A stretch of DNA of 64,000 nucleotides from Candidatus Zipacnadum vermilionense. GTDB lineage: Bacteria > Armatimonadota > Zipacnadia > Zipacnadales > Zipacnadaceae. Below are positions 11,962-47,859 of the stretch, in pieces (within the stretch, counting starts at the first letter, position 1; each line of letters begins with the position of its first letter). Location: assembly GCA_029821755.1 (NCBI GenBank), contig JALGSV010000004.1, forward strand, positions 62,001-126,000, read 5' to 3'. The translations under genes were made by a program, and so were the position numbers. Under the pieces are notes generated by a model that saw only the letters and a program-made list of their open reading frames with translations, was not told where the DNA came from and did not search any database.

Positions 11962-12289
11962 GGTCATGACTCCTTGCAGAGGCGTTTGCAGCTTGCCTAA
12001 GCCGCCAATAATTCCCTATTCGCCGTTCGTTAGGCGCAATCCTGTCTCGCACTCTGCGCCGGAATCGGCCCGGGACGGAGGAAAAGCGGCGTGCTTGCCG
12101 AATAGGGCCAGCGTACCATCCTGCGCCCGGGGCCGATTGACGAGGTGGAGACGACCTGGTTCAAGGGACGGGGCTTCCGGCCGTGCCTTTCCCAATCGAT
12201 CTCCGCGGCAGTTTACCGCCCATCGCGTGGATGTTATAGTTCTATCATAGTCGCCCCAAGCAACGGTTGTATCCCAGGTGGCAGTCAAC
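11962..12289. other. 328-bp divergent intergenic region
   Basis: Lies between the minus-strand lyase-like gene and the plus-strand HTH/two-CW gene and must hold the promoters for both. The only clear signal is the AT-rich patch at 12232-12249 (listed separately). No additional gene is supported. Confidence 0.6.
12235..12245 (+). promoter_or_regulatory. Candidate -10 / small dyad upstream of the HTH/two-CW gene
   Basis: TATAGT at 12235-12240 resembles a -10 hexamer and overlaps the dyad ATAG-TT-CTAT (12236-12245) in an otherwise GC-rich region, about 45-55 bp before the start at 12290. The overlap would suit autoregulation by the HTH protein. No convincing -35 was seen. Confidence 0.35.
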
Positions 12290-12715: not shown

Positions 12716-12782
12716 GGCGGCCCCGGGCCCACGGTGGACGAGGTCGCAGTACATATATGTGAGTCCGAAGGGAGCATGGTAC

Positions 12783-15700: not shown

Positions 15701-16259
15701 GTCCTATGGGTACTCCCCGATCCAGGGGTACGAGGAATATCAAGACCTGCTGCACCTGCAGATGCCGGGAGACGGAGCGTATTTCGTGGCGCTCTACCCA
15801 CGGAAAGGTGGGGAAGAGGTGCCGGAGTTTGCGACGCTCGGCGGTGGGCGAATCATCCGAGTGACCGGCGCCTTCGGCAAGGACTACTGCTTCCTGAACG
15901 GCGCGAACGCGGCGGTGGAGGCGGAGGGCGCGTACTTCTTGGGCAGCGCGGCGTCGGTGCAGGACCGCGAGAGTGGACTGGTGCTGTCCCTGGCGGCGCC
16001 GGGGCAGATCCGCTACGGCGGTTGGGACCTGACCTCCCAGTGCGCGGCCAGCCTGGAGGTAACGCCGGAGGGGGCTGTCGTCCGGGTGCCGCCGGGCGAC
16101 ACGTACGGAGGAATGCGGACGCTCAAGCTGGATATCCCCGGCCAGTGGCAACTGGGGCCGGACAGCGAGGGCGTGACCCTGGTGCCCCCGATGCCGGGCA
16201 CCCCTTGGCTACTGCAGATCGAGCGAGGCGCTACTCAGGCGCGACTGATCAGGCAGTAG
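12783..16259 (+). CDS. Large secreted polysaccharide-lyase-like protein, paralogue of 8545-11961
   Basis: 1158 residues from ATG 12783, with GAAGGGAG 8 bases upstream, opening a signal peptide (MRTFVVGLMIGIILLGGIAWA). It shares layout and many motifs with the minus-strand gene: VLREYLGQSW, VQVTGPNGPVAAQL, NPSTWSIERGYRSYNLNMSV, LPNHPMAKQW, VEYYIAAPTNTPRNTL, DLLHLQMPGDGAYFVAL. Key positions differ: the His-Tyr pair of the paralogue is Asn592-Tyr593 here, and the SHVD His is replaced around Glu751 (LMAERTFGYV). It may thus have another substrate, another mechanism, or only bind glycans. It follows the HTH/two-CW gene by 67 bp and could be co-transcribed with it. Confidence 0.7.
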   Translation: MRTFVVGLMIGIILLGGIAWAASGADRQIVLREYLGQSWAPALLTYPLEAAQADNCDPLSVQVTGPNGPVAAQLIAVQRWPGTEYVRSARLVFVSDLPPNGEKIFTVKYGEKSAVQPATDLSVKPAAGQVEAGTRYFGLRLLLGDKTYDQPQPAAQVPGPVVGMRRPRGQWFGRSSLYGERKVKSYAARITERGPVLVEWTIRYTYEDDSTLDLTVQLAARDAQALWTTNSSADHPRDGWKLMVTPGMDPLVMTWAPEFGKNKWKPLEMVDGRWDFDPIDVPLDEEPEGMITQLTPWKDWWNGTTQTSWTFNNPAGVPVLHAEIQDPGAWVVPDPPGTLRVWDAWHHKLLPLWKEPGGNLGLRVNNAQGVRQWLLGSGEQALGRELDVVKDYVLDWPEGELGHPHLFLNKQELEDYWASHQPDPAEIKRLTDWGQTIQPQPHSSDGGALAAWLMTGTPEVAEQAKLVERLGQHLNLLGDFDLMRATPLLCDLYDGVMGSGLVSEEDRKLFQARMAYLGYKVANPSTWSIERGYRSYNLNMSVAHVLNLGMIAATLPNHPMAKQWVASAEAMMENFLSKSVGPAGEWPESVSNYAYVSASMLEVFAIAAKNAGFHDYISDPRMRRLMEYLAKQYTPPDPRHTEGGKDGSSGLLSPLGRGGAGGRNGMSGMMARATLKDDPEYSAVQQWTWLRTGASRSVPDARLGGWEYVYMDPDLPARQPDSALDYFPETGAIMHLGVGTPDEWYVYLMAERTFGYVSESGGFPVIFAKGAPISARFAGGYSQREELQISRVLLGRERGTKEERTAQFCHDGERRITEVSALPRQQYLASDFTMRTPMHISHEAGATWDHMKDLPLWPQPLGIGQPPLDWRRQVLFVHEQDPAGVGYLVLRDTVTGEQPSIWQMWTVSEKIGTPEQAADRAAFLADKPGMSPVDAYQLPQSNRYTAVGQFGVDVEYYIAAPTNTPRNTLHFGQSYGYSPIQGYEEYQDLLHLQMPGDGAYFVALYPRKGGEEVPEFATLGGGRIIRVTGAFGKDYCFLNGANAAVEAEGAYFLGSAASVQDRESGLVLSLAAPGQIRYGGWDLTSQCAASLEVTPEGAVVRVPPGDTYGGMRTLKLDIPGQWQLGPDSEGVTLVPPMPGTPWLLQIERGATQARLIRQ

Positions 16260-16412: not shown

Positions 16413-19190
16413 TTACGCCGTACTTGGGTGTCTCGTGACCCACACGTCAGATATCGCCACGCTGTAGGGCACCTGCTTGCGCATGTCAACGCCCCGGGCC
16501 AGGTAGCCCTCCATGACCACGATGTCGAAGTGGTCCAGGGCCAGGAATTCCGGCGGGATGCTCAAGGAGGCGAGGCTCGCGCGGTCGTCGCGGCCCTCCG
16601 GGCCCGCGGACGGGATCCAGACGCGCTTGACCTCCACCGGCAGGCCTCCGGCTATCTCCCGAGCGGCCAAGCACACACTGTAGGCCCGCCCCAGGCGGTC
16701 GTAGTCGTAGCCGTGTAGGTGCAGCACCACTCTCTCGTCTTGGTAGGTGCTTAGACCGGCTAGGCGCAGCGTGAACGCTCGGCCCATGTGCCAGGCGGCG
16801 TACCCAGGCGCCCAGGACACCGCGTAGTCGTAGATCGGAATCGAGAACTCCACCCCCGGCGCGCAGTCCATGACATCCTCCAGGTCCGCCTTGTCTCGCC
16901 ACGGCCCGCCCAGGTGGCCCTTGACGTAGGCATGCGCCGCCACCAGCACCTCTCCCGCCTCGCGCTCGCCGAGCATCTCCCGGAACCACTCGCGGCGCTG
17001 CGTCACCAGGTCGGCCCAGTGGGCCTGGATGTAACGGTTCTGACGAGTGCGAGCGGTGGCGAGCAGGAGCGGCAGGTGCTCCGCCTCCGCAGGCGGGACC
17101 CGCTGCGCAAGCTCTTGTCGGGACTGATCCAGGACCGCCTGCTCCTCGGCCGCCTTTTCGAGGGGGTACTTCTCCAGCATCTCCTCCAGATGATCGAGGG
17201 CCTGTAGGTCCAGTTCCGGCCCGTTGGCGATCTCAAGCTCCTCAGCTCGCGCGTTCCACACTCGCACCCAGGGGCGGGGCCAGGACAGGGGCAGCGCCAG
17301 CTCCCCCCGGCTAGCCGAGACGCGGCCGCCGTCGTAATACTCGGCCCAGACCTCCTGCCCCTCGGGCAGGCGCAGCCGCACGGTCGTTTCTCCGGGCAGC
17401 TCCGTCCAGACGTAAGTGTAGGGGATGCGCCCCGGATTGGGGGTAGTCTTGAGGCCCACGAGATTGTGATAGGTCCGCAGGTGCGGGGTGTACGAATGGC
17501 GCGGGCAGCGCAGCAGGAACTCCCAGCGAGTGCTTCCTGCTTGCACCGGCCCGAGGGCGAGCGCATGTTGGCTGCCCTCCAGAGCGGCCGTCACGGGGAC
17601 CAAGCGGGTGCCGTGCATGACCGCTTCCACCTCGCTACGTCCCAGATCATGCGACACCTCCCAGAGGGCCACCGGTAGCTGGGCGAACTCTCGGTCCGAC
17701 TGGATTTCCACGACCAATCGGGCGCCGTCCTCCTCCGGTAGCAGACTGGTGTGTATTCGCACCCCCTCCGTCCGCTCCGGTTCGGGGCCGAACTTGGTCA
17801 GGTCGCGGAACTGCTCATCCGGGTAGTCCCAGGTGCGGTCGTAGTTGTAGAGGTAGTCCGGCAACGCTTCGCCCCGGTTGAAGGCAGCGTGGAAGTGCGC
17901 ATTCTCCATCTGGATCACGTCGGGGTGGTGAATCGGCTTGTCGATCAGCCACGAGCCGACCATGAAGTCCCGCGTGTAGGACACGGTCTCCGGCTGCTCG
18001 GCGACGTGGCGCAAGTAGTAGTCCCGCAGCGTTCGGGTGGTGGCGAAGACCAGCTTGCCCTCGCGAGCCTTCTGGATGGCATAGCGCATGGAGTTGCAGT
18101 TGTTCTCGTATACCGCCGGGGGGCCAAAGTTCTGCATACCCATGGGGAAGATGAGGGGTACCTCGTTGCGCGGCTGGTCGCAGAGCATATCGAGCACCTC
18201 CGCGGAGCGGTAGGCCCGCGGCCCGCTTTCAATGCTCCGGTCCCATACCATCTGGATATCGGTTGCCCAGTGCGCGTCTACATTGCCGCCGTGGAAGTTG
18301 GTGGGGATGACGACGCTGAATACGGTACACAGCAGGGCATCATCCGTGCGGCGGCCAGCCTTGCGGAAGTCCTCCTCGTCCATATAGTACGGCCGCAGTG
18401 GCGTGCCCGTAGCGATCTCGCGCGACTCGCCGTCACGCATGTAGTAGTTCTCCACTAGCGCCGCCAGCACTTTGAGCCCGCACCGGCGCGCCGCCCGCAT
18501 GGTGACGTTGCCCATGCACCAGTGGATATTGAGCACCTCCAGGGGCCGGAAGCCCCACTCGACCCACAGGCGCTGGAGGCTCTCAATCGCCGCCACCGTC
18601 TGCTCCTCGGTCAGTTCCCACAGGCTGTGCAGGTCGTCGTGCCCGAAGTTGACTGTGGTGGCCATGGGGACGATAGTGTCGCCGTAGAGGTATTCGAACT
18701 CGACGAAGGGAGTGAATAAGTCGCGAAGCTCGGGCCGGAACTTGCCGCCGACATGGTAGTCAAAGGGGATGTTGAGGGGATGGACAATCTCGTCGTAGAC
18801 GCGGGTATAGTAAGCTGCGACATCCTGGTCCCACACTGAACCCATACTGCTACCGAAGAAGGCCCCGTTCATGAAGGCGTTGCACACGGCCATGTCCGGC
18901 GTCGCTACGCCAAAGTAGCGCGCGGGGAGTGGGGCGGGAAGACCGGCCAGTTCCAGCAGATGACTCCCCGGCCCAGCCGGACGGTAGCGGGCCTGTCCCC
19001 GCATGGCGCCCGCCGTGGTGTCCTCGTGCCACTCAACCTTCACCTCTTGGGCTGCCGAGGAGGAGTCCTGTAGGTAGTGGTCACGCACTGTCAGCTCCGG
19101 CAAAACGCTGGGCTCCGCGAGCAGCTCAATCTCCACCTCCTCGCCGGGATGAAGTAAAGGATTGCCTATTTCGAGAGTTGGAAGGCGCAT
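16413..19190 (-). CDS. 925-residue protein of unknown function, possibly a carbohydrate-active (beta/alpha) barrel
   Basis: The preferred start is ATG 19190 (MRLPTLEIGNPLLHPGEEV); the open frame reaches 19322, but that leader is Arg/Gly-rich and not protein-like. No signal peptide, so it is probably cytoplasmic. An N-terminal beta-domain (residues 1-100) is followed by a long region with VATPDMAVCNAFMNG, TTVNFGHDDLHSLWEL, EWGFRPLEVLNIHWCMGN and AARRCGLKVLAALVENYY. That region recalls the barrel of NodB-type deacetylases or GH57/GH38-like enzymes (His, Asp and Cys near strand ends). A beta-rich segment follows around 500-640, then a charged helical part, and a C-terminal beta-domain (VSWAPGYAAWHMGRAF, DHFDIVVMEGYL). 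I cannot name a family. It is divergent from the six-gene secreted cluster. Confidence 0.65.
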   Translation of the reverse strand: MRLPTLEIGNPLLHPGEEVEIELLAEPSVLPELTVRDHYLQDSSSAAQEVKVEWHEDTTAGAMRGQARYRPAGPGSHLLELAGLPAPLPARYFGVATPDMAVCNAFMNGAFFGSSMGSVWDQDVAAYYTRVYDEIVHPLNIPFDYHVGGKFRPELRDLFTPFVEFEYLYGDTIVPMATTVNFGHDDLHSLWELTEEQTVAAIESLQRLWVEWGFRPLEVLNIHWCMGNVTMRAARRCGLKVLAALVENYYMRDGESREIATGTPLRPYYMDEEDFRKAGRRTDDALLCTVFSVVIPTNFHGGNVDAHWATDIQMVWDRSIESGPRAYRSAEVLDMLCDQPRNEVPLIFPMGMQNFGPPAVYENNCNSMRYAIQKAREGKLVFATTRTLRDYYLRHVAEQPETVSYTRDFMVGSWLIDKPIHHPDVIQMENAHFHAAFNRGEALPDYLYNYDRTWDYPDEQFRDLTKFGPEPERTEGVRIHTSLLPEEDGARLVVEIQSDREFAQLPVALWEVSHDLGRSEVEAVMHGTRLVPVTAALEGSQHALALGPVQAGSTRWEFLLRCPRHSYTPHLRTYHNLVGLKTTPNPGRIPYTYVWTELPGETTVRLRLPEGQEVWAEYYDGGRVSASRGELALPLSWPRPWVRVWNARAEELEIANGPELDLQALDHLEEMLEKYPLEKAAEEQAVLDQSRQELAQRVPPAEAEHLPLLLATARTRQNRYIQAHWADLVTQRREWFREMLGEREAGEVLVAAHAYVKGHLGGPWRDKADLEDVMDCAPGVEFSIPIYDYAVSWAPGYAAWHMGRAFTLRLAGLSTYQDERVVLHLHGYDYDRLGRAYSVCLAAREIAGGLPVEVKRVWIPSAGPEGRDDRASLASLSIPPEFLALDHFDIVVMEGYLARGVDMRKQVPYSVAISDVWVTRHPSTA

Positions 19191-19375
19191 CTGGGGTTGC
19201 CTGCCTTTCTTTGAAGTGCGCGCGCTCTTCCCCGTGCGTGCCCCTCTAACCTGCCTTGACAGACCGGTTCCTGCAGCGACGAGGTGATGCCATGGCCCTC
19301 TTCCGGGGAGGTCGTGCTTCACCCACCGGGGAACGGAGATACATGTCGCAACGCCTCGACTCTGGAGGACATCCT

Positions 19376-21325
19376 ATGGGCATTTTCCTTTCACGCCGGT
19401 CATGGACGGCGGCGGTGCTGGTACTGGCGGCTACGGCCATGGGCTCGACTGTCTGGGCACAGGCTACCGCCCGTCAGGAGACCGAGGGCCAACGCCAGGT
19501 CCTGGTCATGGAGAACGAATACTGGAAACTCACCGTCTGGCCTGATCTGGGCGCGCGGGTGATGCACGCCGTCTACAAACCCACCGGCCACGACTGGATC
19601 TTCGAGAAGGGCGGGCTATTCTGCGATCACGTGACCCAGCAGACCTGGCCGGGGGAGCTCATGGACGCGGCGTATCAGACGCAGATCATGAGCGCCGGGC
19701 CGGAGGAGGCTACCGTACGGGTCTGGCGCAAGATTGACGGCAAGGGCGATGAGGCCATCGCCGGGGTGGTGTTCGAGCGCGACATGACCCTCAAGCGTGG
19801 CGACCCGCGTCTCCACGCGGTTATCCGTCTGAAGAACGAGACCGAGGCCCCGCGCGCGCCCACGCCCTGGGTGCAGAACATGTTCCACGTCGGCGGGGGC
19901 AAGACCGACAATCGCGACTTCCGCCCCACGACCACCGGCATTCAGGAAGCCTGGGCCGAGTACACTGCTACCGAGACCAAGCGCAACGGCGAGGACTTCG
20001 TCCGCGAGCCTACCGCCGGATGGACGGCCGTGGCCAATACCGCCAACGGGGAGGGCGCCGTCTTCCTGGTCACCTACAACGACCTCTTCTGGCTGTACAA
20101 CTGCATCGGGGCCTTGACCACGGAGTGGTGGTACGACCCGGTACCCCTAGCTCCCGGCGCCTCCTGGGAGTCCCCGGTGACCATGGTGCCCTTCGAGGGG
20201 CTCAAGTCAGTGGCCTATGCCGACCAGAAGGTCATCGCCAGCCTCGACACCACCTACCAGGACCAGAAGTTGGACGCCACTCTCCGCCTCCTGTCCGCCT
20301 CTCCCGAGGCGATGCCTCCAGTAACCGGGGAGTTGACACTGGTCTCCTGGCCCGAGCAGAAGGTGCTCAAGAGCGAGAAGTTTACCACCCCGGAGGTTGG
20401 CGCCAAACCAGTGAGCCAGACCTTCGATCTGGGCGCCCTGGCCAAGACCCAGGAGGCGGTGATCCGGGTCAAGCTCACCTCTGGCCAGTACACCGCCACC
20501 TTTGAGCGGTACTTCGATCCCTTGGCCGCGGAGAAGGCCCAGTTTGGGCAGGTGACCTCCAACTATCGCATCCCCAAACCCCGCAAGGAGAAGCACTTTG
20601 AGCTCCCCGCGGAGGCCAAGGTAGAGCGCCACGAGCAACCCCGGGTGCTCCTCTATGAGGGCCTGCATACCCGGTACTGGGGCCTAGACTATGCCCTCCG
20701 TTACCTGGACGTAGACAAGATCCAGAAGAGCCATCATACCATCTTCGTCTACGGCGACCAGCTCGACTACATGGTCGGCTCCCCCTCCGAGCTGCTCCAG
20801 TACGACCTGGTGATCCTCTCCAACGTGCCGGCGGAGGCGCTGACCGATGTCGGGCAAGCTTTCCTGAAGCTGTACGTCGAGCACGGCGGGTCCCTACTTA
20901 TCCTGGGCGGGAATGCGGCGTACGGGGCCGGCTCTTATGGCGAGGGTGACCTGTCCAGCCTGTTGCCCGTCGAGGTTGGCGGCTTCTTTGACCGGGTGGA
21001 GATCAAGGGTGGCTGCGCCCTGGCGCCCTCCGGCACGCTGGGGGAGTCCCTCTTTGCGCGCTGGCCACGGGGGGGCAACGCCCCGCGCGTTTACTGGATG
21101 CACCAGATCGCCGGCTTGCGACCGGGTGCACAGGTGGTCATGAAGGCCGGCGACCGTCCCGCCATCGTCACCAACCAGGTGGGGGAGGGGCGGGTCGCCG
21201 CCGTGCTGCTCACGCCCTGGGGCGTTCCCGCCGAGGGCCAGATCGGCTTCTGGGAGTACCGACTGTGGCCGCGGCAGCTGGCTGGTCTTATGGATTGGCT
21301 CCAGGCCCAGGAAAGAGGTCGCTGA
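19376..21325 (+). CDS. Secreted mutarotase-like protein with C-terminal glutamine-amidotransferase-like domain
   Basis: 649 residues from ATG 19376 (GGAGGAC upstream, signal peptide MGIFLSRRSWTAAVLVLAATAMGSTVWA). The N-terminal part (VLVMENEYWKLTVWPDLGARVMHAVYKPTGHDWIF) resembles galactose-mutarotase/DUF5107-like sugar-binding beta-supersandwiches. The C-terminal part, from about residue 435, is a Rossmann-like GATase1-like domain (LLQYDLVILSNVP, YVEHGGSLLILGGNAAYG) without a nucleophile Cys at the elbow, so it is probably not a true amidotransferase. The same C-terminal module occurs in 24923-26806. This is the first gene of the tight six-gene run, with a 2-bp gap to the next. Confidence 0.7.
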   Translation: MGIFLSRRSWTAAVLVLAATAMGSTVWAQATARQETEGQRQVLVMENEYWKLTVWPDLGARVMHAVYKPTGHDWIFEKGGLFCDHVTQQTWPGELMDAAYQTQIMSAGPEEATVRVWRKIDGKGDEAIAGVVFERDMTLKRGDPRLHAVIRLKNETEAPRAPTPWVQNMFHVGGGKTDNRDFRPTTTGIQEAWAEYTATETKRNGEDFVREPTAGWTAVANTANGEGAVFLVTYNDLFWLYNCIGALTTEWWYDPVPLAPGASWESPVTMVPFEGLKSVAYADQKVIASLDTTYQDQKLDATLRLLSASPEAMPPVTGELTLVSWPEQKVLKSEKFTTPEVGAKPVSQTFDLGALAKTQEAVIRVKLTSGQYTATFERYFDPLAAEKAQFGQVTSNYRIPKPRKEKHFELPAEAKVERHEQPRVLLYEGLHTRYWGLDYALRYLDVDKIQKSHHTIFVYGDQLDYMVGSPSELLQYDLVILSNVPAEALTDVGQAFLKLYVEHGGSLLILGGNAAYGAGSYGEGDLSSLLPVEVGGFFDRVEIKGGCALAPSGTLGESLFARWPRGGNAPRVYWMHQIAGLRPGAQVVMKAGDRPAIVTNQVGEGRVAAVLLTPWGVPAEGQIGFWEYRLWPRQLAGLMDWLQAQERGR

Positions 21326-21327
21326 CC

Positions 21328-23103
21328 ATGCGTAGGGTGTGTCTAATGGCCGCAAGCACGGGCTTGGTCGCGCTGCTCGCCTCGGCCGTCTGTGCCGACC
21401 TAGCCCTCACCAAGGTCTGGCCTGAAAAGATTCGCTACGTGGAAGGGGAAGAGGCGGTCTTCGCCATCCAGGTAAAGAACACTGGTCAGCAACCCTGGCA
21501 GGGCCGCGTTTCGGGCACCATCGAGAGCGGGTTGGCCGAGCGCACCCCGGTCTTTGACCGGGAGATGACGCTGGCCGCCGGCGAGGAGAAGACCCTAACC
21601 GAGAAGTACGAGGTCCACTTGGGCGAGTTCGGCCACGCCCTGTACGTGGTCGCGGACAACGGCCAGGCCCGGACCGAGGCCCGCGAAGTTTTCTGCGTCG
21701 GCCCCTGGTACTACAACATGGGCCGCTACCTTACTGCCTTCGAATTGGGCAAGTTTAGGAGCCCGGAGGAAGTGCAGGCCGCCATGCAGAGCAAGTGGCG
21801 CTCGTGGTACGTAACCTGCCACGAGTTGTTCTCCACTGCCCCCGGCATCTGGGCGCAGATGACGCCCACCGACGAGACCTGGTTCTCCGGCCAGAACAGC
21901 TTCTACGAGTCCCTTACCGGAGAAACAGCGTTTATCGAAGCCGCCCACCGCAACGGCATGGCGGTCATGCTGTACGATATCACCGCCTGTCATGCCGCCC
22001 CGGCGGAGGAGTACTCCCGCGCACACCCGGATTGGCTCAACTACAACGACCGCGGCCGGCCCCAGGGCGCCTACAACATGGCTGAGATGGAGAGATGGCG
22101 TGCTATGACTTTGGAGGCGCGCGAACACACCAGTCCGGTGCAGTTGGCGCCGAATGTGGCCAGTCCCCAGGTGCAAGACGCGCATTTGCAGGATATTATC
22201 GCCTGCTCAAAGGTGCTCGGCTATGACGGGATTCGCTGGGACGGTCAGCTTATCACCGCCGGCTACGATGTCTTTGGCAAGCGGATCGACACCGATCTGG
22301 ACGCGCAGAACGCGGCCTGGAACACCAAGATGCGCAGGACGCTAATGGACGCGATTCCGGGCTACACCGTTAACTACAACTACGGTCCGCAGAGCCAGGG
22401 CGAGGGCGTGCCCCTGCCCCAGACGTACAAGACCCTGGGACCGAACGCCTACCTGCTGTGGGAGTCCATCCGCGGCACCTACAAGGACCCCAACAGCCCC
22501 CTCAACGTCTGGGAAGGCTTCATCGAGGGAACCCGGGCCGAGATCAACGACTACGCGCGGCCCCACGGTAACTTCCAGCATTTCGGTTGGTACGGGATGG
22601 ACTCCGAGGTCCAGCAGAACCACACCCAGGCCATCCTCTACGCCCTCGGTGGCCACTGGGACACCTGGAACCCCCTCAAGTACGACGCCTTCTCCATGCG
22701 TTACGGTGAGTACCTGTGGGACACCCACCTGAAGAATCTGCAGGACGGTTCCGCCCTGGTGCAGGTTGCCGACCCCCAGGACCGCCTGTGGTGGCAGCAG
22801 TTCGTGCAGGAGCGGCCCCGCGCGGGCGGTGGCCGCACCATTGTGACACATGTGCTCAACAAGCCGGTACATGAGCGGCAGAACGAGTTTGAGAAGGACG
22901 CGCCGCCGCTCCAGACTGACGTCAAGGTCACTCTCGCTCCGCCCCCCGGGGCCCAGGTACTCAAGGCATACGTCCTGACTCCCGATGCCAACCGCGCCCA
23001 CTGGTGCGCGGAGGTAACGCCGACGGTTGAGGGCGGGAAGGCTTCAGTCATAGTGCCCAGCGTGGAGTACTGGAGCTTCGTGGTCTGGGAAACGGGCGCC
23101 TGA
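21328..23103 (+). CDS. Secreted GH66-like TIM-barrel glycosidase (copy 1)
   Basis: 591 residues from ATG 21328, 2 bp after the previous stop. Signal peptide, then an N-terminal Ig-like domain (VWPEKIRYVEGEEAVFAIQVKN ... TIESGL) and a barrel from about residue 125. The barrel motifs are GMAVMLYDITACHAAP, AHPDWLNYNDRGRP, GYDGIRWDG with Asp305, and NAYLLWESIRG with Glu379. These are candidate nucleophile and acid/base, as in dextranase-type GH66 enzymes. The C-terminus is a beta-sandwich ending VPSVEYWSFVVWE. It is a tandem paralogue of 23133-24926, similar over its whole length. Assignment to GH66 is by pattern only. Confidence 0.7.
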   Translation: MRRVCLMAASTGLVALLASAVCADLALTKVWPEKIRYVEGEEAVFAIQVKNTGQQPWQGRVSGTIESGLAERTPVFDREMTLAAGEEKTLTEKYEVHLGEFGHALYVVADNGQARTEAREVFCVGPWYYNMGRYLTAFELGKFRSPEEVQAAMQSKWRSWYVTCHELFSTAPGIWAQMTPTDETWFSGQNSFYESLTGETAFIEAAHRNGMAVMLYDITACHAAPAEEYSRAHPDWLNYNDRGRPQGAYNMAEMERWRAMTLEAREHTSPVQLAPNVASPQVQDAHLQDIIACSKVLGYDGIRWDGQLITAGYDVFGKRIDTDLDAQNAAWNTKMRRTLMDAIPGYTVNYNYGPQSQGEGVPLPQTYKTLGPNAYLLWESIRGTYKDPNSPLNVWEGFIEGTRAEINDYARPHGNFQHFGWYGMDSEVQQNHTQAILYALGGHWDTWNPLKYDAFSMRYGEYLWDTHLKNLQDGSALVQVADPQDRLWWQQFVQERPRAGGGRTIVTHVLNKPVHERQNEFEKDAPPLQTDVKVTLAPPPGAQVLKAYVLTPDANRAHWCAEVTPTVEGGKASVIVPSVEYWSFVVWETGA

Positions 23104-23132
23104 CACGCCCACGAGATATGGAGGTTCCTCTC

Positions 23133-24926
23133 ATGTCAAATCGCAAGAGTCTATCGCTGCTGATTCTGGTTCTCCTCGCCACGGTCGTGGCGGCCGCCGC
23201 CGCCGAGGCGGCGGTTACCTTCACGAAGGTCTGGCCGGTCAAGATCCGCTACCTCAACGGCGAGGATGCCACCTTTCTGGTGAACGTGAAGAACACCGGC
23301 GCCCAGCCCTGGTCGGGCCGGGTCAGCGGGGTCATCGAAAGCGGCCTGGACCAGACTACGCCGGTCTTTGATGACGCCGTGACCGTGGCCGCGGGCGAGG
23401 AGACCAAGCTGGAGAAGCATTGGAAGGTGAACCTGGGCGAGTTCGGCCATACCCTCCACGCCGTGGCCGAGAACGCCGACGGCACCCTAGCCGCCGAGGG
23501 CCGTGAGGTCTTTTGTGTGGGGCCCTGGTACTACAACATGGGCCGCTACATTACCTTCTTCAACTTGCGCAGCCTCCAGACAGTTGCGGCGGCCGAGCAG
23601 GCCAAGGTCCTGCCGTGGCGCAAGTGGTACATCACCTGCGCCGAGCATTTCGCTGGTCCGCCCGGCGCCTGGGGAGCGATGGTGCCGGAGACCGAGGAAT
23701 TCTACACTGGCCAGGCCGCCTTCGCCGAGAGCCAAACCAGTGAGCGCGCGCTCATCGACGCCGCGCACAACAACGGCCTCGCCGTGATGCAGTACGACGT
23801 CATCTCCACCTGGGGCCCCCTCCTGGAGGACTACTCCCGGGCCCATCCCGACTGGATCGCTTACAACGACCGGGGCCGGCCCGCCGGCTTCTTCAACATG
23901 ACCGAGATGGACTACTTCCGCGCCATGACTCCCGAGAACCTCGAGCACATGTCCCCCGGCGCTATCACGGGTAACGTGTCCCACCTCCAGGCTCAGGAAT
24001 CCGCCCTGGACGACATCATCGCCGGGCTGAAGATGTTCAACTTCGACGGCATCCGCTGGGACGGCCACACCTTCGCGAAGGCGCTGGACATCTACGGCAA
24101 GCCTACGGTGGCAGGTGACCTGGACGAGGCCAATGCCAAGTGGGTGGTCCACATGAAGGAACGCCTCCACGCGGCCTTGCCCAACGTCACCATCAACTAC
24201 AACTACTATCCGCAGAGCATGGGTGAGGGGGCTCCCCTGCCCAAGACGTACCAAGTCATGGGGCCCAACGCGTATGTGCTGTGGGAGTCCATGCGGGGGC
24301 GCTTCAAGGACTCCAACGACCCCCTCAACGTGTGGGAAGGCTTCGTGCAGGGGGTGCGCGACGAAATCAACGACTTCGCGCGGCCCCACGGCAACTTCCA
24401 GCATTTCGGCTGGTACGCTTGCGACTCCCCTATCCAACAGAACCACACCCAGGCTATCTACTACGCTCTGGGTGGCCACTGGGACACCTGGACGCCGCTT
24501 CGCTACGACGCCTTCTCCATGCGCTACGGTGCCTACCTGTGGGACTTGCGCTTCAAGAACCTGGACGACGGGAGCAGCGTCGTCCAGGTTGCCGATCCCA
24601 AGGATCGGCTGTGGTGGAAACAATTCGTGCAGGAGCGCCCCCGCGAGGGCGGCGGGCGTCTCATCATTACCCACGTCCTGAACAAGCCGGTGCACGAACG
24701 CCAGGACGAGTTCGAGAAGGAGGCGCCCCTGCTGCAGCAGGACGTCCCGGTCACCTTGACCCCGCCCGCAGGCGAGAGAGTCCTCCGCGCCTTCCTGCTC
24801 AACCCCGACGCTGAACCGACCGACTGGTGCACCGAGATGAATCCGGCCCGGGAGGGCGACGCGTGGTCCGTGGTGATGCCCTCGGTGGAGTTCTGGAGCT
24901 TCGTCGTTTGGGAGGTCGGAAAGTGA
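23133..24926 (+). CDS. Secreted GH66-like TIM-barrel glycosidase (copy 2)
   Basis: 597 residues from ATG 23133 (GGAGG 8 bases upstream). Co-linear with copy 1: signal peptide, Ig-like domain (VWPVKIRYLNGEDATFLVNVKN), and a barrel with NNGLAVMQYDVISTW and AHPDWIAYNDRGRPAG. FNFDGIRWDG holds Asp310, and NAYVLWESMRG holds Glu385. The C-terminal part contains NKPVHERQDEFEKEAPLLQ and PSVEFWSFVVWE. Candidate catalytic residues are kept in both copies. Most differences lie in the segment around residues 135-200 (the barrel entrance), which suggests related but distinct substrates. The stop overlaps the next gene (GTGA), implying translational coupling. Confidence 0.7.
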   Translation: MSNRKSLSLLILVLLATVVAAAAAEAAVTFTKVWPVKIRYLNGEDATFLVNVKNTGAQPWSGRVSGVIESGLDQTTPVFDDAVTVAAGEETKLEKHWKVNLGEFGHTLHAVAENADGTLAAEGREVFCVGPWYYNMGRYITFFNLRSLQTVAAAEQAKVLPWRKWYITCAEHFAGPPGAWGAMVPETEEFYTGQAAFAESQTSERALIDAAHNNGLAVMQYDVISTWGPLLEDYSRAHPDWIAYNDRGRPAGFFNMTEMDYFRAMTPENLEHMSPGAITGNVSHLQAQESALDDIIAGLKMFNFDGIRWDGHTFAKALDIYGKPTVAGDLDEANAKWVVHMKERLHAALPNVTINYNYYPQSMGEGAPLPKTYQVMGPNAYVLWESMRGRFKDSNDPLNVWEGFVQGVRDEINDFARPHGNFQHFGWYACDSPIQQNHTQAIYYALGGHWDTWTPLRYDAFSMRYGAYLWDLRFKNLDDGSSVVQVADPKDRLWWKQFVQERPREGGGRLIITHVLNKPVHERQDEFEKEAPLLQQDVPVTLTPPAGERVLRAFLLNPDAEPTDWCTEMNPAREGDAWSVVMPSVEFWSFVVWEVGK

Positions 24927-26806
24927 GACCCCTTCACCTGGGACCGCTGACCGCCCTCCTGGTTCTGGCTGTCTGCGCTGTCTGCCTTCCGGGATACGCT
25001 CAGCCCGCCACCGACTTGCCCGCTCTCGCTCCCGACCAGGGCCCCGATCTCTCTCAGGTCCGCGTTTCCGAGATACCCCTCAGCAAGCAGGCCGACGACG
25101 ACAAGCGCACCGTCTACATCCAGGACATCATCCTAGACAACGGCCTTCGCCAGTTCGGCCTGCATAAAGCGGATATCCTCTACAAGCCGGCCACCGTACC
25201 CGCCCAGAACGTCGGCTGGAACGCCCCCGACCAGGCCAACTGGTACCACAGTAACATGTTCGACCTGTTCGTCAACGGGAAGAACGTGAACGTCGGAAAG
25301 TCCACCTTCACCATCCTCGAATCGGGCCCCCGGGGCGTCGCCGATTTTACCCTCGACAACGAGTTCGGCAAGTTCCGCTGCCGCTTCGTGGTGATCCCCA
25401 ATAGCGAAGTGCTCTTCGCCGATTTCGCCATCGAGCCGGTTGGGGAGGTCAAGAGCCTGGTGTTGAAGCTGCACAACTACCCCAGCAGCTACAAGGCCAC
25501 CCGCGAGGGCAAGCGCCACCGTCAGGTCCTCAACGCAGAGGGGACGCTCGAACCCCAGGCTCAACCTTATCCCCTCAACCCCGCCACCGACTGGTGGTAC
25601 TTCTACCAGGATGCCATATTCGACAAGGACGTCCCCGAGTACCGCGACCCCACCTACGGCCCCTCGGCGCTGGTGCTGCCCTCCGATGAACCGCGGAAGG
25701 TTAAGATCACCGTGGGTGACTACGAGGTCCCCACCGAGATCGAATACGCTCCGGACCGTCGGCATTTCCGGATGGCCTTCCTTGATTACTTTGGCTTGGG
25801 CAACAAGCCGGCCTTGGCCCGCTTCGTCAAGGAGCGCGGCCCGGTGCGGACGACGCTGGACAACCTGGTCTTCGTCCCGCAGCGCCTGCGGAAGGCCCAA
25901 GGCGCCCTGCCGCAGATCACGCCGGACGGCCTGACTGGGGAGGCCGCCGCGGCAGTGCCGGAACTCAAACAACTGCTGGGCGCGCTCCCGGAGGGCGATC
26001 CTTGGCCGCAGAAACCGGTAACCGCCGAGGACCGGGCGCTGCAACTGCTGGACCAGTACGACAAAGCGTGCTGGGCCGTGGTGAAGAAAGACCGGCCGGG
26101 GATCGGGGTACTGGTGATGCGGGGTCTGCACTGGCGCTCCTGGGGACTGGACCAGGCGGAGAAGTCGCTGGGCAAACTCCTGCGTGAGACGGGGGTATCG
26201 CACTACGCCGAGTACTACTGGAAGAGCGAGGAGATGACCTACTTCCCCGCCACCTGGGAGGAGATATCACGGTTCGACGTAATCGTCTTTGCCAACGTCC
26301 CCTTCACGGTACTCGGCCCGCAGCGCTCGCAGGCGCTGGCGGAATACCTGCAAGCGGGTGGCGCAGTGCTGCTGCTGGGTGGGACCCACGCTTACGGCCA
26401 GGCTGGCCTCGACCAGGCCCCGCTCGGCCCGCTGATGCCGGTGCAGCCGACGAAGCTCTTCGACCTGCAGCGCTTCGACAAGTACCAACCGCTGGTCAAG
26501 ACTAAGGACGCGCCGGTGTGGCTCAACGGAGCGGGGATTGACTGGAAGGCGGCACCGACCGGGCTGTGGTATCACCAGGTGCAAACGGCGCCGACGGGCA
26601 AGGTGTGGCTGGAGGTCGGCGGCAGGCCTTTCCTGGTGACGGGAAGCGCCGGGGCGGGGCGCGTGGCCGCTCTCTGCGCGCCGCCCTACGGCGAGGTGGG
26701 GAGGGGGGACGCCCCCTTCTGGGAGTGGAAATCATGGCCGGGCCTGATGGCGAGGCTGCTGTTGTGGTTGGGGAGAGGGGAGACGCCGAACCTGCCGACT
26801 GGGTAG
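24923..26806 (+). CDS. Secreted protein with C-terminal GATase-like domain, unknown function
   Basis: 627 residues. The start is GTG 24923, overlapping the previous stop by 4 bases, with GGGAGG 7-8 bases upstream; a signal peptide ends at PGYAQPA. The N-terminal part is beta-rich (YIQDIILDNGLRQFGLHKADILY, FRCRFVVIPNSEVLFADFAIEP). From about residue 390 it carries the module seen in 19376-21325 (GVLVMRGLHWRSWGLDQ, SRFDVIVFANVPF, YLQAGGAVLLLGGTHAYG), again without an elbow Cys. Such modules are related to the beta-galactosidase trimerisation fold and may bind partners or sugars. Confidence 0.65.
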   Translation: MRPLHLGPLTALLVLAVCAVCLPGYAQPATDLPALAPDQGPDLSQVRVSEIPLSKQADDDKRTVYIQDIILDNGLRQFGLHKADILYKPATVPAQNVGWNAPDQANWYHSNMFDLFVNGKNVNVGKSTFTILESGPRGVADFTLDNEFGKFRCRFVVIPNSEVLFADFAIEPVGEVKSLVLKLHNYPSSYKATREGKRHRQVLNAEGTLEPQAQPYPLNPATDWWYFYQDAIFDKDVPEYRDPTYGPSALVLPSDEPRKVKITVGDYEVPTEIEYAPDRRHFRMAFLDYFGLGNKPALARFVKERGPVRTTLDNLVFVPQRLRKAQGALPQITPDGLTGEAAAAVPELKQLLGALPEGDPWPQKPVTAEDRALQLLDQYDKACWAVVKKDRPGIGVLVMRGLHWRSWGLDQAEKSLGKLLRETGVSHYAEYYWKSEEMTYFPATWEEISRFDVIVFANVPFTVLGPQRSQALAEYLQAGGAVLLLGGTHAYGQAGLDQAPLGPLMPVQPTKLFDLQRFDKYQPLVKTKDAPVWLNGAGIDWKAAPTGLWYHQVQTAPTGKVWLEVGGRPFLVTGSAGAGRVAALCAPPYGEVGRGDAPFWEWKSWPGLMARLLLWLGRGETPNLPTG

Positions 26807-27061
26807 GGGCGTGTCCTCGCTAGGGGCAGCGGCGTCGGGTAGACACCGGAAGCTGGAGGCTGGCGCACTTGGCCTGGTGCAAGATTCGGTGAGTAGGCTT
26901 CCCGCTAGGCAGACATCCTTCGCCGACACCAGTTCAGGAGTCGGCAGACCCGCCCCAACTGGGGCTGGCAGGGCAGGCAATCTCGCCTTCCACAACGGAA
27001 AGCAGATTGCAGCGCCACCCCGAGCGGCGCTGACGAGACCACACCCCAAGGAGAGCGACTA
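26807..27061. other. 255-bp gap inside the secreted-protein cluster
   Basis: No gene is seen. It contains the hairpin GCCCCA-AC-TGGGGC (26952-26965), a GAGCGGCG half-motif near 27022, and the AAGGAGAG ribosome-binding site of the next gene. It probably separates two transcription units or holds an internal promoter. Confidence 0.5.
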
Positions 27062-30000
27062 ATGCGCGCACTGTTACTGGTCCTTGTTACCTTGACGCTG
27101 CTGGCCGGACTAACCACCGCCTGGGCCGCCGATGCACCCGCCACCCTCGCCGGCGTCCCCGTGCTCGACAAGGCCCCCTCCTCTCCCGCGGAACTGGTCC
27201 GCGCCTTGCGGGACTATCCGGAGCTGTCCGCCTTCTCCCGTAACGCCGAGGTCATCGACACCGGGATACAGACCATGATCTACGGCGAGGACTTCCCCGT
27301 GGGACCGGCTGCCGCCACCCCTTGGGCCAAACCCCTCCCCGGCGGTCCACTCAAGCTAGTCATCATCGGCCAATCCGCCAACTGCTTCGATTTGGCCGAG
27401 GTCCAGCGGCGTGTGGACTGTCAGGTCCGCTTTGTCCATCTCCCCGACCAGTACTACTTCGCTAAGGCCCACCCCGAGGCGGTCGCCGGCTACTACTCGT
27501 CTCAGGCTCTCAAGGCGCTGGCCCAAGATGCGGACGTCATCCTGGCCGATTCACTGGTGCGCATTCTCAGCCCTGAGGTAGTGACGGCAATCACCGAAAA
27601 GGTCCAGGCCGGCTGTGGCCTGGTCATGTCACCCGTGATCCGCTGGGGCGGCGGCGGCCAGTGGGGCTACTGGCCCGCGGTCGAGGAGGGCGCCCCCTGG
27701 AAGGAATTCTCTGCCTCGCTAGTCAAGTCTGCCGATCCGCTGCAGGGCGGGCAACACAACTACATCGCCCTGCACTCCGTCACCTCAGAGCCGGGCTTCT
27801 TCGATGGCCTCCCCTGGACTCTCCTGCCCGCTCACAACCTCATCGGCATGGAGGCCGCCGATACGGCCACGGTCCTGGCCCAGGACGGCGACGTGCCCCT
27901 CGCTGTCGGCGGCCCTGTCGGTAAGGGGCGTGCCGTCTACTTGGCCTGGGGATCGTACATGGGTTGCTTCCCTCTGGCGGAGGACAACAAGCCCGCCAAG
28001 ATTGACCAGTACCAGGAGTATTACTCCGGTGCCATCATCCGCGCCCTACTCTGGGCGGCCAACCGCCCCAGCCCGCTGATCCTCTCCCTCGCCGACGGTG
28101 CCCAACAGTCTGCCGGCGCTACCGGCACGGCCCACCTCCAGGTGGCAGGAACCGTCCCCGCCGGGGCGAAAGTGGAGTTGCGTCTTCGCGACCTGCTCTG
28201 CCGCGATGTCTGGAACAAGACCGTCCCCGCCGCCGGGGGCGCCGTGGAGGCCAAGCTACCCGCCCTCGCCGGTGGCGACTACCTTCTCGACGCCATCGCC
28301 CGCGACGGCCAGGGCAACAGCCTTGGCTGGGCGAGCTTCGTCGTCTCCGCTCAGGCCCAGATGGACCTCGGTGTCAGCCTGGATAAGGAGGTCTATGAGC
28401 CCGGCCAGCCGGTGATCATCACCGCCCAGATCGGCAACGGCCCCGAGGGCGACTACACCGCCACGCTCCAGGTCTGGGACGCCCTGGATCGCCTGCTGCA
28501 AGAGGAGACCAAGCCCATGCCGGCCGCCAAGGCACAGTTCACCTTCGCCAACGGCGATCCGCTCACTGTGCTGCACTATGCCGACGTGCAGGTCAAGCGT
28601 AACGGCCAGCCCTACCTTACCCAGCGCACCGACGTCTTTGTCCCCCGGTTCACCTTCACCGACTTCCGCAACAGCCTGTGGGGCGCCTGGCTGCCCCCTT
28701 ACGCCACCAAGCGCATTGACCGCCGCCTGCGGGAGGGCATGGGTTTCGACATCATGCTCTGCGGCGGGTACGGAGGATCCCATCGGGAGGGCAACTACGC
28801 CCACTTGGCTAGTGGCGTCCTGCCTTTTTACACCAACATCGCCTACGTCTCCCCACAGGAGGTGGAGAAGGCTCCTGACAAGACCAAGGAAGCCACCGTC
28901 CAGTTGCTGGAGGGCAGCCTCCCCGAACTTAAGCAGTTCGGCGGTGCAGTCCTTTTCTTCCAGGACGAGCGCCACGGCATGAGCGATGCCGGCCAGGTCA
29001 CCGACGAGGCCCTAGCCTGCTTCCGCGCCTGGCTCAAGCCCCGCTATCCCAGCATCGACGCGCTCAACGCCGCCTGGGGCCGCGAGTACGACAGCTTCGA
29101 CCAGGTTATGCCCCTGCTTACCAAGGAGTACGATCCCGCCAAGGAGCAGAGCCTCTCTCCGTGGCTCGAATGGCGCTTGTGGGTCATGGACACGGTCGTA
29201 GACATTGACCGCACCAACGCCCATCGCCTCAAAGAGTATCTGGGGCACGACGCCTGGGTGGGCCTCGAAGGCATCTTCGGCCTCGGCGGACACAACATTC
29301 CCTACGGCGGCGTCGACCTTGCCGCCCAAGCCGACGACTGCTTCAACACCGCCGCTCCCTACGGCGAGTACCTGATGAACGGGTGCCAGAGCTTCTACTC
29401 CGGCCCCTCCTTCTCGTGGAACGGGTATGGCAACCCTTATCCCGTTTACCAGCGTTACGTCTGGGCCCGCGCCCTGCAGGGCGACTGGAGCCTCGGCTGG
29501 TTTTGCGGGAACACCTTCTACAGCCCCAACGACGCCTTCCTACCCCAGGCCCGCTGGGTCGCTGACCTCACCAAGCCCCTGCGCGAGGGCGTGGGCAAGC
29601 TCTTGTCCGAGATCCGGCCCCTCCTCCGCGAACCCATCGCCTTCCTGTACAGCCAACCCAGCCTCTACAGCATGAGCATCCTCGGCAAAACCGTGGACCC
29701 CACCAACAGCCATCTCTTCACTCGGCCCGCTGAGTGGGCCCGCGACAGCTTGCAGCGCATGTTCACCGACACCGGCGTCCAGTTCTCCTACCTCTCCGAG
29801 AAGCAGGTCCAGCAGGGCCAGGCTCGTAACGTGAAGCTCATGGTCCTCACCTCCTGCTTGGCCCTCGAGCCCGCCACCTGCGCGGCCCTGGAGAAGTTCG
29901 TCGCTGATGGCGGCATCGTCCTCGCTGACCTGTGCCCCGGCGTCTGGGACGATCACGGCGGATATCACAGCCCCGGGCAGCTTGACCAGCTCTTCGGAGT

Positions 30001-30868
30001 CCAGCGCGCCGAGAAGTTCACCTTCGCCACCATGCCGCTCGACTGGAGCATCGGCATCTTCGAGGCTGAGCCGGACTTCAACCTCAAGAACGACTGGCTC
30101 ATCGGGCAGTACTACGAGAAGACGCTGCAGGTTGCCGATGGCCACGCCCTGGGCAAGCACATCTTCGGGCCCGTCCAGCCGCCCGCCTTCGTCTTCAAGC
30201 GCACCGGCAAGGGCGCCGCGATTCTGATGAACTATCTGGAGACCGAGTATAAGCGCGTCCCGGAGCACTGGCAGATGCTGGTTGCCAACGAGGTTCTCAA
30301 GCTCGCCAAGATCACGCCGCAGGTCACCCTGCGCGACGTGGCCCGCGACGACAACCCTATCACCGAGGGGGTCAAGATCATGCGCTGGCAGGACGGCGAC
30401 GCCCAGTACTTCGGTGTGCTGCTCGACGACGGTCGGAACACCAAGATCGAGCTGCCCCAGGCGGGCCACCTCTACGAGCTGTCCAGTGGCGGCCGCTACC
30501 TGGGTCAGGCTCAGTCGGCCACCCTGGACCTGCGCGACAATCCCCACGCCCTGCTCGCCGTATTGCCCTACAAGATCGACGGGGTTACCCTCAAAGCCCC
30601 GAACGGGAAGCTCGGCCAGGACCTCCCGCTCGACTTCACCATGCAGGTCACCGGCGGCAGGCCCGTCCGTCACGTGGTGCACCTGGACGTGTATCAGCCG
30701 GACGGCACGCTCAACTATTCGCTCAGCCGCAACTACGCGTTCTCCAACGGCAGATGGCGCGGCACGGTACTCCTGGCCCTGAACGATCCGCAGGGTCAGT
30801 GGACTATCAAGGCCCGGGAAGTGGATTCGGGGCTGACCTCGGAAGTCAAAGTGCAGGTGCGCAAATGA
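27062..30868 (+). CDS. Very large secreted GH42-like (beta-galactosidase-type) protein
   Basis: 1268 residues, ATG 27062 with AAGGAG 8 bases upstream, signal peptide MRALLLVLVTLTLLAGLTTAWA. An N-terminal GATase-like domain (LKLVIIGQSANCFDLAEV) and Ig-like region (to about 540) precede a TIM barrel. AVLFFQDERHG holds Glu636 as candidate acid/base. CFRAWLKPRYPSIDALNAAWGREYDSFDQ is a strong GH42 signature. The segment DSLQRMFTDTGVQFSYLSEKQV with VLTSCLALEPATCAALEKFVADGG matches the GH42 trimerisation-type domain. C-terminal beta-domains follow. The size is far above ordinary GH42 enzymes (about 650-700). The stop overlaps the next start (ATGA). Confidence 0.75.
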   Translation: MRALLLVLVTLTLLAGLTTAWAADAPATLAGVPVLDKAPSSPAELVRALRDYPELSAFSRNAEVIDTGIQTMIYGEDFPVGPAAATPWAKPLPGGPLKLVIIGQSANCFDLAEVQRRVDCQVRFVHLPDQYYFAKAHPEAVAGYYSSQALKALAQDADVILADSLVRILSPEVVTAITEKVQAGCGLVMSPVIRWGGGGQWGYWPAVEEGAPWKEFSASLVKSADPLQGGQHNYIALHSVTSEPGFFDGLPWTLLPAHNLIGMEAADTATVLAQDGDVPLAVGGPVGKGRAVYLAWGSYMGCFPLAEDNKPAKIDQYQEYYSGAIIRALLWAANRPSPLILSLADGAQQSAGATGTAHLQVAGTVPAGAKVELRLRDLLCRDVWNKTVPAAGGAVEAKLPALAGGDYLLDAIARDGQGNSLGWASFVVSAQAQMDLGVSLDKEVYEPGQPVIITAQIGNGPEGDYTATLQVWDALDRLLQEETKPMPAAKAQFTFANGDPLTVLHYADVQVKRNGQPYLTQRTDVFVPRFTFTDFRNSLWGAWLPPYATKRIDRRLREGMGFDIMLCGGYGGSHREGNYAHLASGVLPFYTNIAYVSPQEVEKAPDKTKEATVQLLEGSLPELKQFGGAVLFFQDERHGMSDAGQVTDEALACFRAWLKPRYPSIDALNAAWGREYDSFDQVMPLLTKEYDPAKEQSLSPWLEWRLWVMDTVVDIDRTNAHRLKEYLGHDAWVGLEGIFGLGGHNIPYGGVDLAAQADDCFNTAAPYGEYLMNGCQSFYSGPSFSWNGYGNPYPVYQRYVWARALQGDWSLGWFCGNTFYSPNDAFLPQARWVADLTKPLREGVGKLLSEIRPLLREPIAFLYSQPSLYSMSILGKTVDPTNSHLFTRPAEWARDSLQRMFTDTGVQFSYLSEKQVQQGQARNVKLMVLTSCLALEPATCAALEKFVADGGIVLADLCPGVWDDHGGYHSPGQLDQLFGVQRAEKFTFATMPLDWSIGIFEAEPDFNLKNDWLIGQYYEKTLQVADGHALGKHIFGPVQPPAFVFKRTGKGAAILMNYLETEYKRVPEHWQMLVANEVLKLAKITPQVTLRDVARDDNPITEGVKIMRWQDGDAQYFGVLLDDGRNTKIELPQAGHLYELSSGGRYLGQAQSATLDLRDNPHALLAVLPYKIDGVTLKAPNGKLGQDLPLDFTMQVTGGRPVRHVVHLDVYQPDGTLNYSLSRNYAFSNGRWRGTVLLALNDPQGQWTIKAREVDSGLTSEVKVQVRK

Positions 30869-31929
30869 GGAGCGGACCAAACGCGTGCCGGGGACTACGT
30901 ATCCCGTCGCTTCCTGCCTGGACCTTCGCGCTGCTCCTGGGCGTGGCTGCCGCCGTCTGCGCCCAGGGCCCCGCACCCCTGACTTGGGGTACCTACATGG
31001 CCACCGACGGCCACGCCACGCACCTCGAGTGGAAGACGCAGAACCTAAAGGCCTCCGAGACAGCCGACGCCCTGCACCTGGAGGTAGAGCCCAAGACCAG
31101 CGGCACTGCTACCACCGTCCCCCTCGCGCTGGCCCCTCTGCGTCTGTACACAATCACTATGACCTGCCGGCGTGGGCCCGGAACGCGGCTGGATGTCTTC
31201 GTGAAGTGGCTCGATGCCGAGAATAAGTCGAACCAGCGCCTCATGGTCTGGCAGCTACCCGACCGCTTCCGCGTCAACTGGTGGCCGCTCTCGGCACTCA
31301 AGACCACCTACGCCCAGCGCTTCTGCCTGCCCCCCGGCGCCACCCAGCCCACCCTCCAGGTCGCCATGAGGGGCCACCCGGACGCTGGCTACAACTACTT
31401 CGACCTTTACGACCTCAACCTCACCCGTGGCCCCGAGGTCCCCTACGGCCCCCGCCTTGGCCCCAACCTTCTCGCAACGGGCACGATGGACGCCGCCGAC
31501 GCCAACGGCATGGCCCTGGGCTGGACTTTCTGGGGAGCCAACCCGGACGCGAAGGTGCTCGACCAGGACCCCGACGGCCGCCCCGCCCGCGCCAGCCGCG
31601 CCTTCCTGGCCATCCCTGCGGGAAAGAACTGCATCCTAGCCGGCGGGACGATCCCCGTCCAGCCCGGCCGCGCCTACCGCTTCTCCTTCTGGGTGCGCGG
31701 GCAGGGCGATCTCAGCCCCGGCCTGCAGTCCCTGGAGCCCGATCAGGGCCAGCGCGTCGCCGACGCCCAACAACGCCCCTTCCACGTCGAGGCCGCCGAC
31801 TGGCAGCAGCTGTCCTTCGACTGGTTTGCCGAGTCCCTCTGGATAGATAGCGCTAACCCCTTCATGGGAATCGGCACCCAGACCGAGCTTGACCTCGACG
31901 ACTTCACCTTCCAGTTGGTGGAGCCCTAG
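30865..31929 (+). CDS. Secreted carbohydrate-binding-like (jelly-roll) protein
   Basis: 354 residues from ATG 30865, overlapping the previous stop by 4 bases. A signal sequence (LPAWTFALLLGVAAAVCAQ) is followed by two galactose-binding-like beta domains. The first contains LRLYTITMTCRRGPGTRLDVF, and the second PVQPGRAYRFSFWVRGQGD and LDLDDFTF. The LDLDDF end is typical of CBM-type jelly rolls. No catalytic motif is seen. It may assist the GH42-like enzyme, to which it is translationally coupled. It is the last gene of the secreted cluster. Confidence 0.65.
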   Translation: MRSGPNACRGLRIPSLPAWTFALLLGVAAAVCAQGPAPLTWGTYMATDGHATHLEWKTQNLKASETADALHLEVEPKTSGTATTVPLALAPLRLYTITMTCRRGPGTRLDVFVKWLDAENKSNQRLMVWQLPDRFRVNWWPLSALKTTYAQRFCLPPGATQPTLQVAMRGHPDAGYNYFDLYDLNLTRGPEVPYGPRLGPNLLATGTMDAADANGMALGWTFWGANPDAKVLDQDPDGRPARASRAFLAIPAGKNCILAGGTIPVQPGRAYRFSFWVRGQGDLSPGLQSLEPDQGQRVADAQQRPFHVEAADWQQLSFDWFAESLWIDSANPFMGIGTQTELDLDDFTFQLVEP

Positions 31930-36088: not shown

Positions 36089-36210
36089 GCGTTCTCCTTC
36101 TTGGTGGGGCGGCTTGGCGTATCCCGATGCGCAGGGCTAAGTAAGTCGCCGGCCTCAACCGTCCCAGGTTCCGCCTGCGTGCGCTCAAACCCTTCTTCAC
36201 GGTCCGGCTA

Positions 36211-36240
36211 TTGCGGAAACCGCCCCGCTCCTCGTATACT
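36211..36240 (+). promoter_or_regulatory. Sigma-70-type promoter for the thioredoxin-like membrane protein
   Basis: TTGCGG (36211-36216) and TATACT (36235-36240) separated by 18 bp, about 80 bp before the ATG at 36320. No competing signal in the region. Confidence 0.6.
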
Positions 36241-36319
36241 CGGAATGAGAATTGTTCTATGTTTGGGGAGCCCTCCGGGGCCTTCAGGGTTATCTTCCAA
36301 TAGGGGGAATGGTCTTTCC

Positions 36320-46751: not shown

Positions 46752-46826
46752 ATATGGGGTAGAGTCTGGCATCCGAGACAGTCCGACAGGAAGATACCGC
46801 CACGCAGCGGCAATCACAACACGCCA

Positions 46827-46858
46827 AGTATACTGCCACACGGCCTACCCTTTGTCAA
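46827..46858 (-). promoter_or_regulatory. Possible promoter of the PEGA/deacetylase gene
   Basis: On the minus strand a consensus TTGACA (46858-46853) and TATACT (46832-46827) lie 20 bp apart, longer than usual, upstream of the start at 46751. The palindrome AGTATACT could also serve the plus strand toward lipA. Confidence 0.35.
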
Positions 46859-47843: not shown

Positions 47844-47859
47844 GTGGCTCGTGCGCAGA

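Follow-up and report, generated by a model that had tools for sequence, protein, structure and literature searches.

The six exported genes at positions 19376 to 31929 of the window (the whole analyzed stretch, 64,000 nucleotides of contig JALGSV010000004.1 of Candidatus Zipacnadum vermilionense) include a recurring two-part module. Its conserved unit is a divergent GH66-type barrel (P0002 and P0003) that lies beside, or is fused to, a protein whose C-terminal domain is GATase1-like and lacks the amidotransferase cysteine (P0001 and P0004). The first-pass annotation had presented the six genes as a single polysaccharide utilization locus (PUL), and that interpretation as a whole is partly supported: the genes are real, but a conserved and expanded GH66-like/GATase1-like module, with a GH42-like/CBM pair apart from it, describes them better. 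Genes 1 to 4 are best explained as one copy of the module in which both barrel and partner have been doubled, and P0005 and P0006 are best explained as an independent GH42-like and CBM pair that lies downstream by chance. The six genes are as follows.

P0001, 19376..21325, + strand: signal peptide; NP1 domain at ~83-408 (DUF5107 edge match); C-terminal GATase1-like domain at ~464-682
P0002, 21328..23103, + strand: exported GH66-like barrel with putative nucleophile D326 and putative acid/base E400 (residues counted from the GTG at 21265)
P0003, 23133..24926 (23118 as the start with the upstream ATG), + strand: exported GH66-like barrel, a paralogue of P0002 (61%)
P0004, 24923..26806, + strand: exported; NP4 domain at ~134-385; C-terminal GATase1-like domain at ~428-648
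P0005, 27062..30868, + strand: exported GH42-like protein; GH42 match at 640-726 and GH42M match at 923-990
P0006, 30865..31929, + strand: exported; weak CBM_4_9 match

The coordinates confirm that all six open reading frames share one strand, and each of the six proteins begins with a hydrophobic export-type signal (read by eye), as had been claimed. The junctions from P0001 to P0006 are, in order, 2 bp, 29 bp, a GTGA overlap, 255 bp, and an ATGA overlap, with the second gap falling to 14 bp if the upstream ATG of P0003 is used; these values agree with the earlier ones, but the number of tight junctions is four rather than five. The GC3 of the six genes (0.82 to 0.87) is the same as that of the surrounding coding genes, and no tRNA or Rfam element was found across the window. 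The earlier view that all six proteins have sugar-binding or glycosidase folds is borne out only in part. P0002 passes the Pfam GH66 cut-off (27.0 bits versus 23.7) and P0003 falls below it, P0005 matches Glyco_hydro_42 (28.3 bits versus a cut-off of 21) over just 87 barrel residues and has an additional weak GATase-like match near its N terminus, and P0006 matches CBM_4_9 below the threshold. P0001 and P0004, however, carry the Pfam GATase1_like domain, which is not a classical sugar-binding fold. The domain scan also bore out the statement that the six-gene cluster contains no SusC/D pair, sulfatase, transporter, or regulator, and a SusC/SusD pair was likewise absent from the scanned neighbors.

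Linkage and spread of the barrel and its partner

The 4.39-Mb genome contains about 24 copies of the barrel and about 33 relatives of the C-terminal domain of P0001 and P0004. A same-strand partner starts within 5 kb of 19 of the 24 barrel genes, whereas in 2,000 random placements this number averaged 0.86 and never exceeded 5; the barrels without a partner in reach are those on contigs C44 and C79 and three on C23. On the last of these, which is short (G000:C23:1-9423, L078), three GH66-like genes follow one another with no GATase1-like partner on the contig. Among a first set of 62 barrel open reading frames, 9 were fused to a partner and 32 were adjacent to one within 3 genes, the rest consisting of 3 for which the retrieved piece showed the partner's N-terminal domain alone, 7 at contig ends, and 11 with none. 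A second set of 19 loci, drawn from three distant genomes (G244, G064, and G242) and chosen for the barrel with the partner disregarded, gave 6 fused pairs, 11 adjacent pairs, and 2 barrels without a partner (one of them at a contig end). The fusions occur in both orders (L071 versus L072 and L073), and the low-GC3 genome G283 shows the same arrangement (L124).

Dozens of such pairs, adjacent or fused, are spread across Armatimonadota, a little-studied phylum with very few cultured members. Full-length, high-scoring barrel matches were present in about fifteen of 291 Armatimonadota genomes, the remaining reported matches being short. The number of matches was 26 in this genome, 19 and 17 in G243 and G244, 9 in G001, 7 each in G064 and G242, and 1 to 3 in the other searched carriers, and there were none in the genus mate G002. 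Few of the roughly 24 copies in this genome pass the Pfam GH66 cut-off, and the literature yielded neither a description of such a barrel/partner pair nor an Armatimonadetes paper that mentions GH66. This is a large glycosidase family in Armatimonadota that is mostly missed by standard annotation and that usually travels with its partner.

Genes for a sulfatase, GH2, DUF4838/GH67-like, and GH116 proteins neighbor the module at sister loci. The first three of these, together with the conserved GH66-type catalytic residues described below, support the original proposal of secreted glycan processing. It is also conceivable, though unlikely, that the module serves the cell's own glycans (capsule, exopolysaccharide, or wall), building or remodeling them by transglycosylation, and is not there to digest food polymers. 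Such a role would fit the transglycosylases (CITase, cycloisomaltooligosaccharide glucanotransferase) among the solved close relatives of the barrel, the place of CBM87 in an exopolysaccharide-modifying enzyme (PMC7229062), and a cluster without transporters. However, 24 divergent copies at many loci with this range of neighbors look more like foraging on diverse external glycans, and the patchy presence of the module, which is missing from a genus mate, also argues against remodeling. URO-D-like genes (L060:10320-11420, with relatives at 7 loci) and Gfo/Idh/MocA oxidoreductase genes (L075:8905-9966, with relatives at 6 loci) also lie near module loci and possibly act in sugar demethylation or oxidation.

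Orthologues of P0003 and P0004 are paired, with the same kind of overlap and 71 to 72% identity, in Armatimonadetes bacterium CG2_30_59_28 (L059; its open reading frames are the same as those of G064:C62). G064 belongs to another class of Armatimonadota, and its ribosomal protein S2 is 59% identical to that of the genome studied here. Because the pair is more alike than S2 and was not found in the searched genus mates, P0003 and P0004 were probably exchanged horizontally as a unit, as judged from these identities. P0003 is closer to its G064 copy (71%) than to P0002, so that either the duplication predates the split or P0002 has evolved faster. With P0002 as the query against genome contigs, one record matched, that of the same Armatimonadetes bacterium. 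The barrel and partner trees of 15 linked pairs within this genome were not correlated (Mantel r=0.03, p=0.41), and a correlation of r=0.42 over all genomes may be due simply to how the species are related. The lack of correlation within this genome could come from swapping of partners or from saturation of the short domain, and it gives no evidence of exclusive pairing or of a pair-specific complex.

The GH66-like half, a probable enzyme

A profile of 52 barrels matched solved GH66 enzymes (PDB 5x7g, 3wnk, 5axg, and 3vmn), with E=1.7e-30 for CITase and 2.7e-21 for dextranase. The alignment spans the N-terminal Ig-like domain, the first half of the barrel, and the C-terminal beta-domain, and the second half of the barrel is unaligned. 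PF13199 was matched at E<0.01 by 30 of the 52 barrel domains. D326 of P0002 aligns with the GH66 catalytic aspartate, a position occupied by alanine in chains 3wnl and 3wnp, and by counting in the profile alignment it corresponds to Asp309 of PsCITase. The catalytic pair of PsCITase is Asp309/Glu381, with a spacing of 72 (PMC5408701); the spacing between D326 and E400 in P0002 is 74. D326 is conserved in 71 of 72 barrels and E400 in 67 of 72, and we infer that E400 is the acid/base, a match that rests on spacing and conservation, since the alignment ends upstream of the GH66 glutamate. Given the profile homology, the conservation of both residues, and their spacing, the barrel is likely a GH66-type retaining enzyme.

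GH66 enzymes act on alpha-1,6-glucan, and by homology this would be the nearest known activity. The module barrels, in contrast to CITase and dextranase, are mostly under the Pfam/NCBIfam GH66 thresholds, are coupled to a GATase1-like partner, and have expanded to about 24 copies here. These copies are about 20 to 30% identical to each other and have probably diversified, and the divergence is too great for a substrate to be assigned; the arabinose or galactose specificity suggested by the first reading found no support. AlphaFold models of P0002 and P0004, built from 3- and 2-sequence alignments, respectively, were poor (pLDDT of 42.5 and 33.1).

The partner half and a proposed mode of action

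The C-terminal domain of the partner falls with PF07090 (14 of 15 members matched), and its profile matches the solved structures 3soz, 2gk3, and 3rht with E values down to 2e-27. Those homologs are short proteins that stand alone and have no assigned function, two of them annotated as cytoplasmic, whereas the module's proteins are exported and tied to a glycosidase. Across 64 GATase1-like domains, no alignment column held cysteine in more than 20% of the sequences; the nucleophile of the Cys-His-Glu triad has thus been lost, and amidotransferase chemistry is therefore very unlikely. A domain of Agd3 from Aspergillus fumigatus, with a fold closest to that of 3RHT and a ThuA-like protein, also lacks the triad; it binds glycan and founded the family CBM87 (PMC7229062). 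Because of this precedent for a triad-less fold, glycan binding is our best guess, by analogy, for the GATase1-like domain. The two share a GATase1/ThuA-type fold and 3RHT as a near fold or profile match; they differ in the enzyme that they accompany, which in the module is a barrel glycosidase and in most cases a polypeptide of its own. We do not assign the domain to CBM87, since the Agd3 chain was absent from the GATase1-like profile matches up to an E value of 0.1. GH42 beta-galactosidases with a trimerization domain (GH42M) likewise combine a barrel with a domain to which the GATase1-like profile gives a weak match (6jow, E 0.006); P0005 is itself GH42-like, whereas the module barrel is GH66-like.

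The partner has two types of N-terminal domain, NP1 and NP4, which are unrelated by profile. In the search against solved structures, the lone match of NP1 was repetitive and designed-propeller-like and was judged spurious. The partner could itself be an enzyme, mutarotase-like or lyase-like in NP1 and ThuA-like and sugar modifying in the GATase1-like domain, that acts on the products of the barrel. The retention of D124, H125, and E290 of NP1 in 24 to 28 of 29 sequences and the weak DUF5107 and ThuA matches of the partner domains are consistent with this. We nevertheless regard it as improbable, as nothing credible among the solved structures is related to NP1, NP4 shows no profile relationship to NP1, and the GATase1-like domain is missing its nucleophile. 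One P0001-type protein (L065:9828-12305, + strand) has an extra C-terminal stretch that is apparently a cyclophilin-type peptidyl-prolyl isomerase domain, and one A4 member matched Pro_isomerase.

The explanation that we favor, with somewhat more confidence than doubt, is that secreted GH66-like retaining glycosidases work with a dedicated glycan-binding partner in a two-part module of Armatimonadota. P0002 and P0003 would be secreted, divergent GH66-type (beta/alpha)8 glycosidases or transglycosidases that cleave or transfer alpha-glycosidic bonds by the retaining GH66 mechanism, with D326 as the nucleophile and E400 as the acid/base. P0001 and P0004 would be their secreted partners, in which a variable N-terminal domain is joined to a GATase1-fold C-terminal domain without the amidotransferase cysteine. 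Like CBM87, that domain may bind the glycan, acting in trans or, in the fusions, in cis; there may be direct contact between the subunits, and the copies of the module may have diversified to many glycans. More tentatively, the pair may form a two-subunit class of glycoside hydrolase, in which the GH66-like barrel needs the separate GATase1-fold protein for substrate binding or for completion of the active site, and which would have expanded and diverged in two or more distant lineages of Armatimonadota, partly by horizontal spread, as a counterpart of the Sus expansion in Bacteroidota. The module shares with the SusC/D PULs of Bacteroidota its repeated loci, exported glycan enzymes, and presumed binding protein; here, however, no SusC/D pair or dedicated regulator was found, and the repeat unit is an enzyme and its partner, not a transporter and a binder. 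Should the partner prove to be a subunit that binds in trans, this would be an unfamiliar way to build a polysaccharide-degrading enzyme, it would give a function to part of PF07090, and the natural fusions would provide a set for biochemistry.

Genes 5 and 6 and the surroundings of the cluster

Orthologues of P0005 and P0006 occur together in the genus mate G001 (G001:C318; 69% and about 50% identity), where they adjoin a GH38 mannosidase, a glycosyltransferase, and a fucose-isomerase-like gene. That 19.6-kb contig carries no GH66-like gene, and P0001 to P0004 are also missing from it; P0001, P0005, and P0006 are in turn absent from the 8.6-kb contig of Armatimonadetes bacterium CG2_30_59_28 that bears the P0003-P0004 orthologues. 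A P0006-like gene remains adjacent to P0005 homologs. In this genome, a second P0005-like gene lies ~50 kb upstream (L061:11990-15806, - strand; G000:C53:31993-35737) in two overlapping frames, due to a frameshift or assembly error, and precedes a P0006-like gene.

The GH172 (DUF2961), D-lyxose isomerase, and transketolase genes reported to adjoin the cluster are real, as judged by their domain matches. Homologs of these three and of P0008 were found at none of the other loci examined. P0008 (window 16413-19322, - strand; 969 aa) is divergently oriented with a very short gap to P0001 and has no Pfam/NCBIfam match. Since genes 1 to 4 and genes 5 and 6 separate in relatives and the neighbors are without homologs at those loci, a single PUL is not supported; unlinked genes in relatives had been named beforehand as evidence against it.

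Two large lyase-like proteins with weak DUF4962 matches are encoded at window 8545-11967 (- strand) and 12759-16259 (+ strand), and the first-pass annotation had included them in the system. About 44 copies or fragments of this family occur in the genome, an expansion bigger than that of the GH66-like family, and 7 of them are at most 10 kb away from a GH66-like gene, compared with 3.7 expected. This enrichment is not significant (p=0.07), and the lyase-like genes were rejected as fixed partners of the module. We give little credence to a six-gene PUL that, with the lyases, GH172, lyxose isomerase, and transketolase, would degrade one polymer and pass its sugars into the pentose phosphate pathway. 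Its tight junctions, single strand, and uniformly exported products, with genes for the last three of those enzymes nearby, speak for such a system; the separation of the units, the neighbors that recur at no other locus, the lyase result, and the 255-bp gap past gene 4 speak against it.

Directly downstream of the neighbors of the cluster, and also telling against a single PUL, are homologs of ribosomal protein S2, EF-Ts, an amino-acid-kinase-family protein, ribosome recycling factor, and undecaprenyl diphosphate synthase. A 515-aa open reading frame without a Pfam match (window 36101-37648, + strand) lies where the AT skew is unusual (-0.241). Farther along, a protein that combines PEGA repeats and AMIN with a polysaccharide deacetylase domain (window 43740-46841, - strand) is adjoined by a TamB-like protein of 1838 aa (window 47716-53232).
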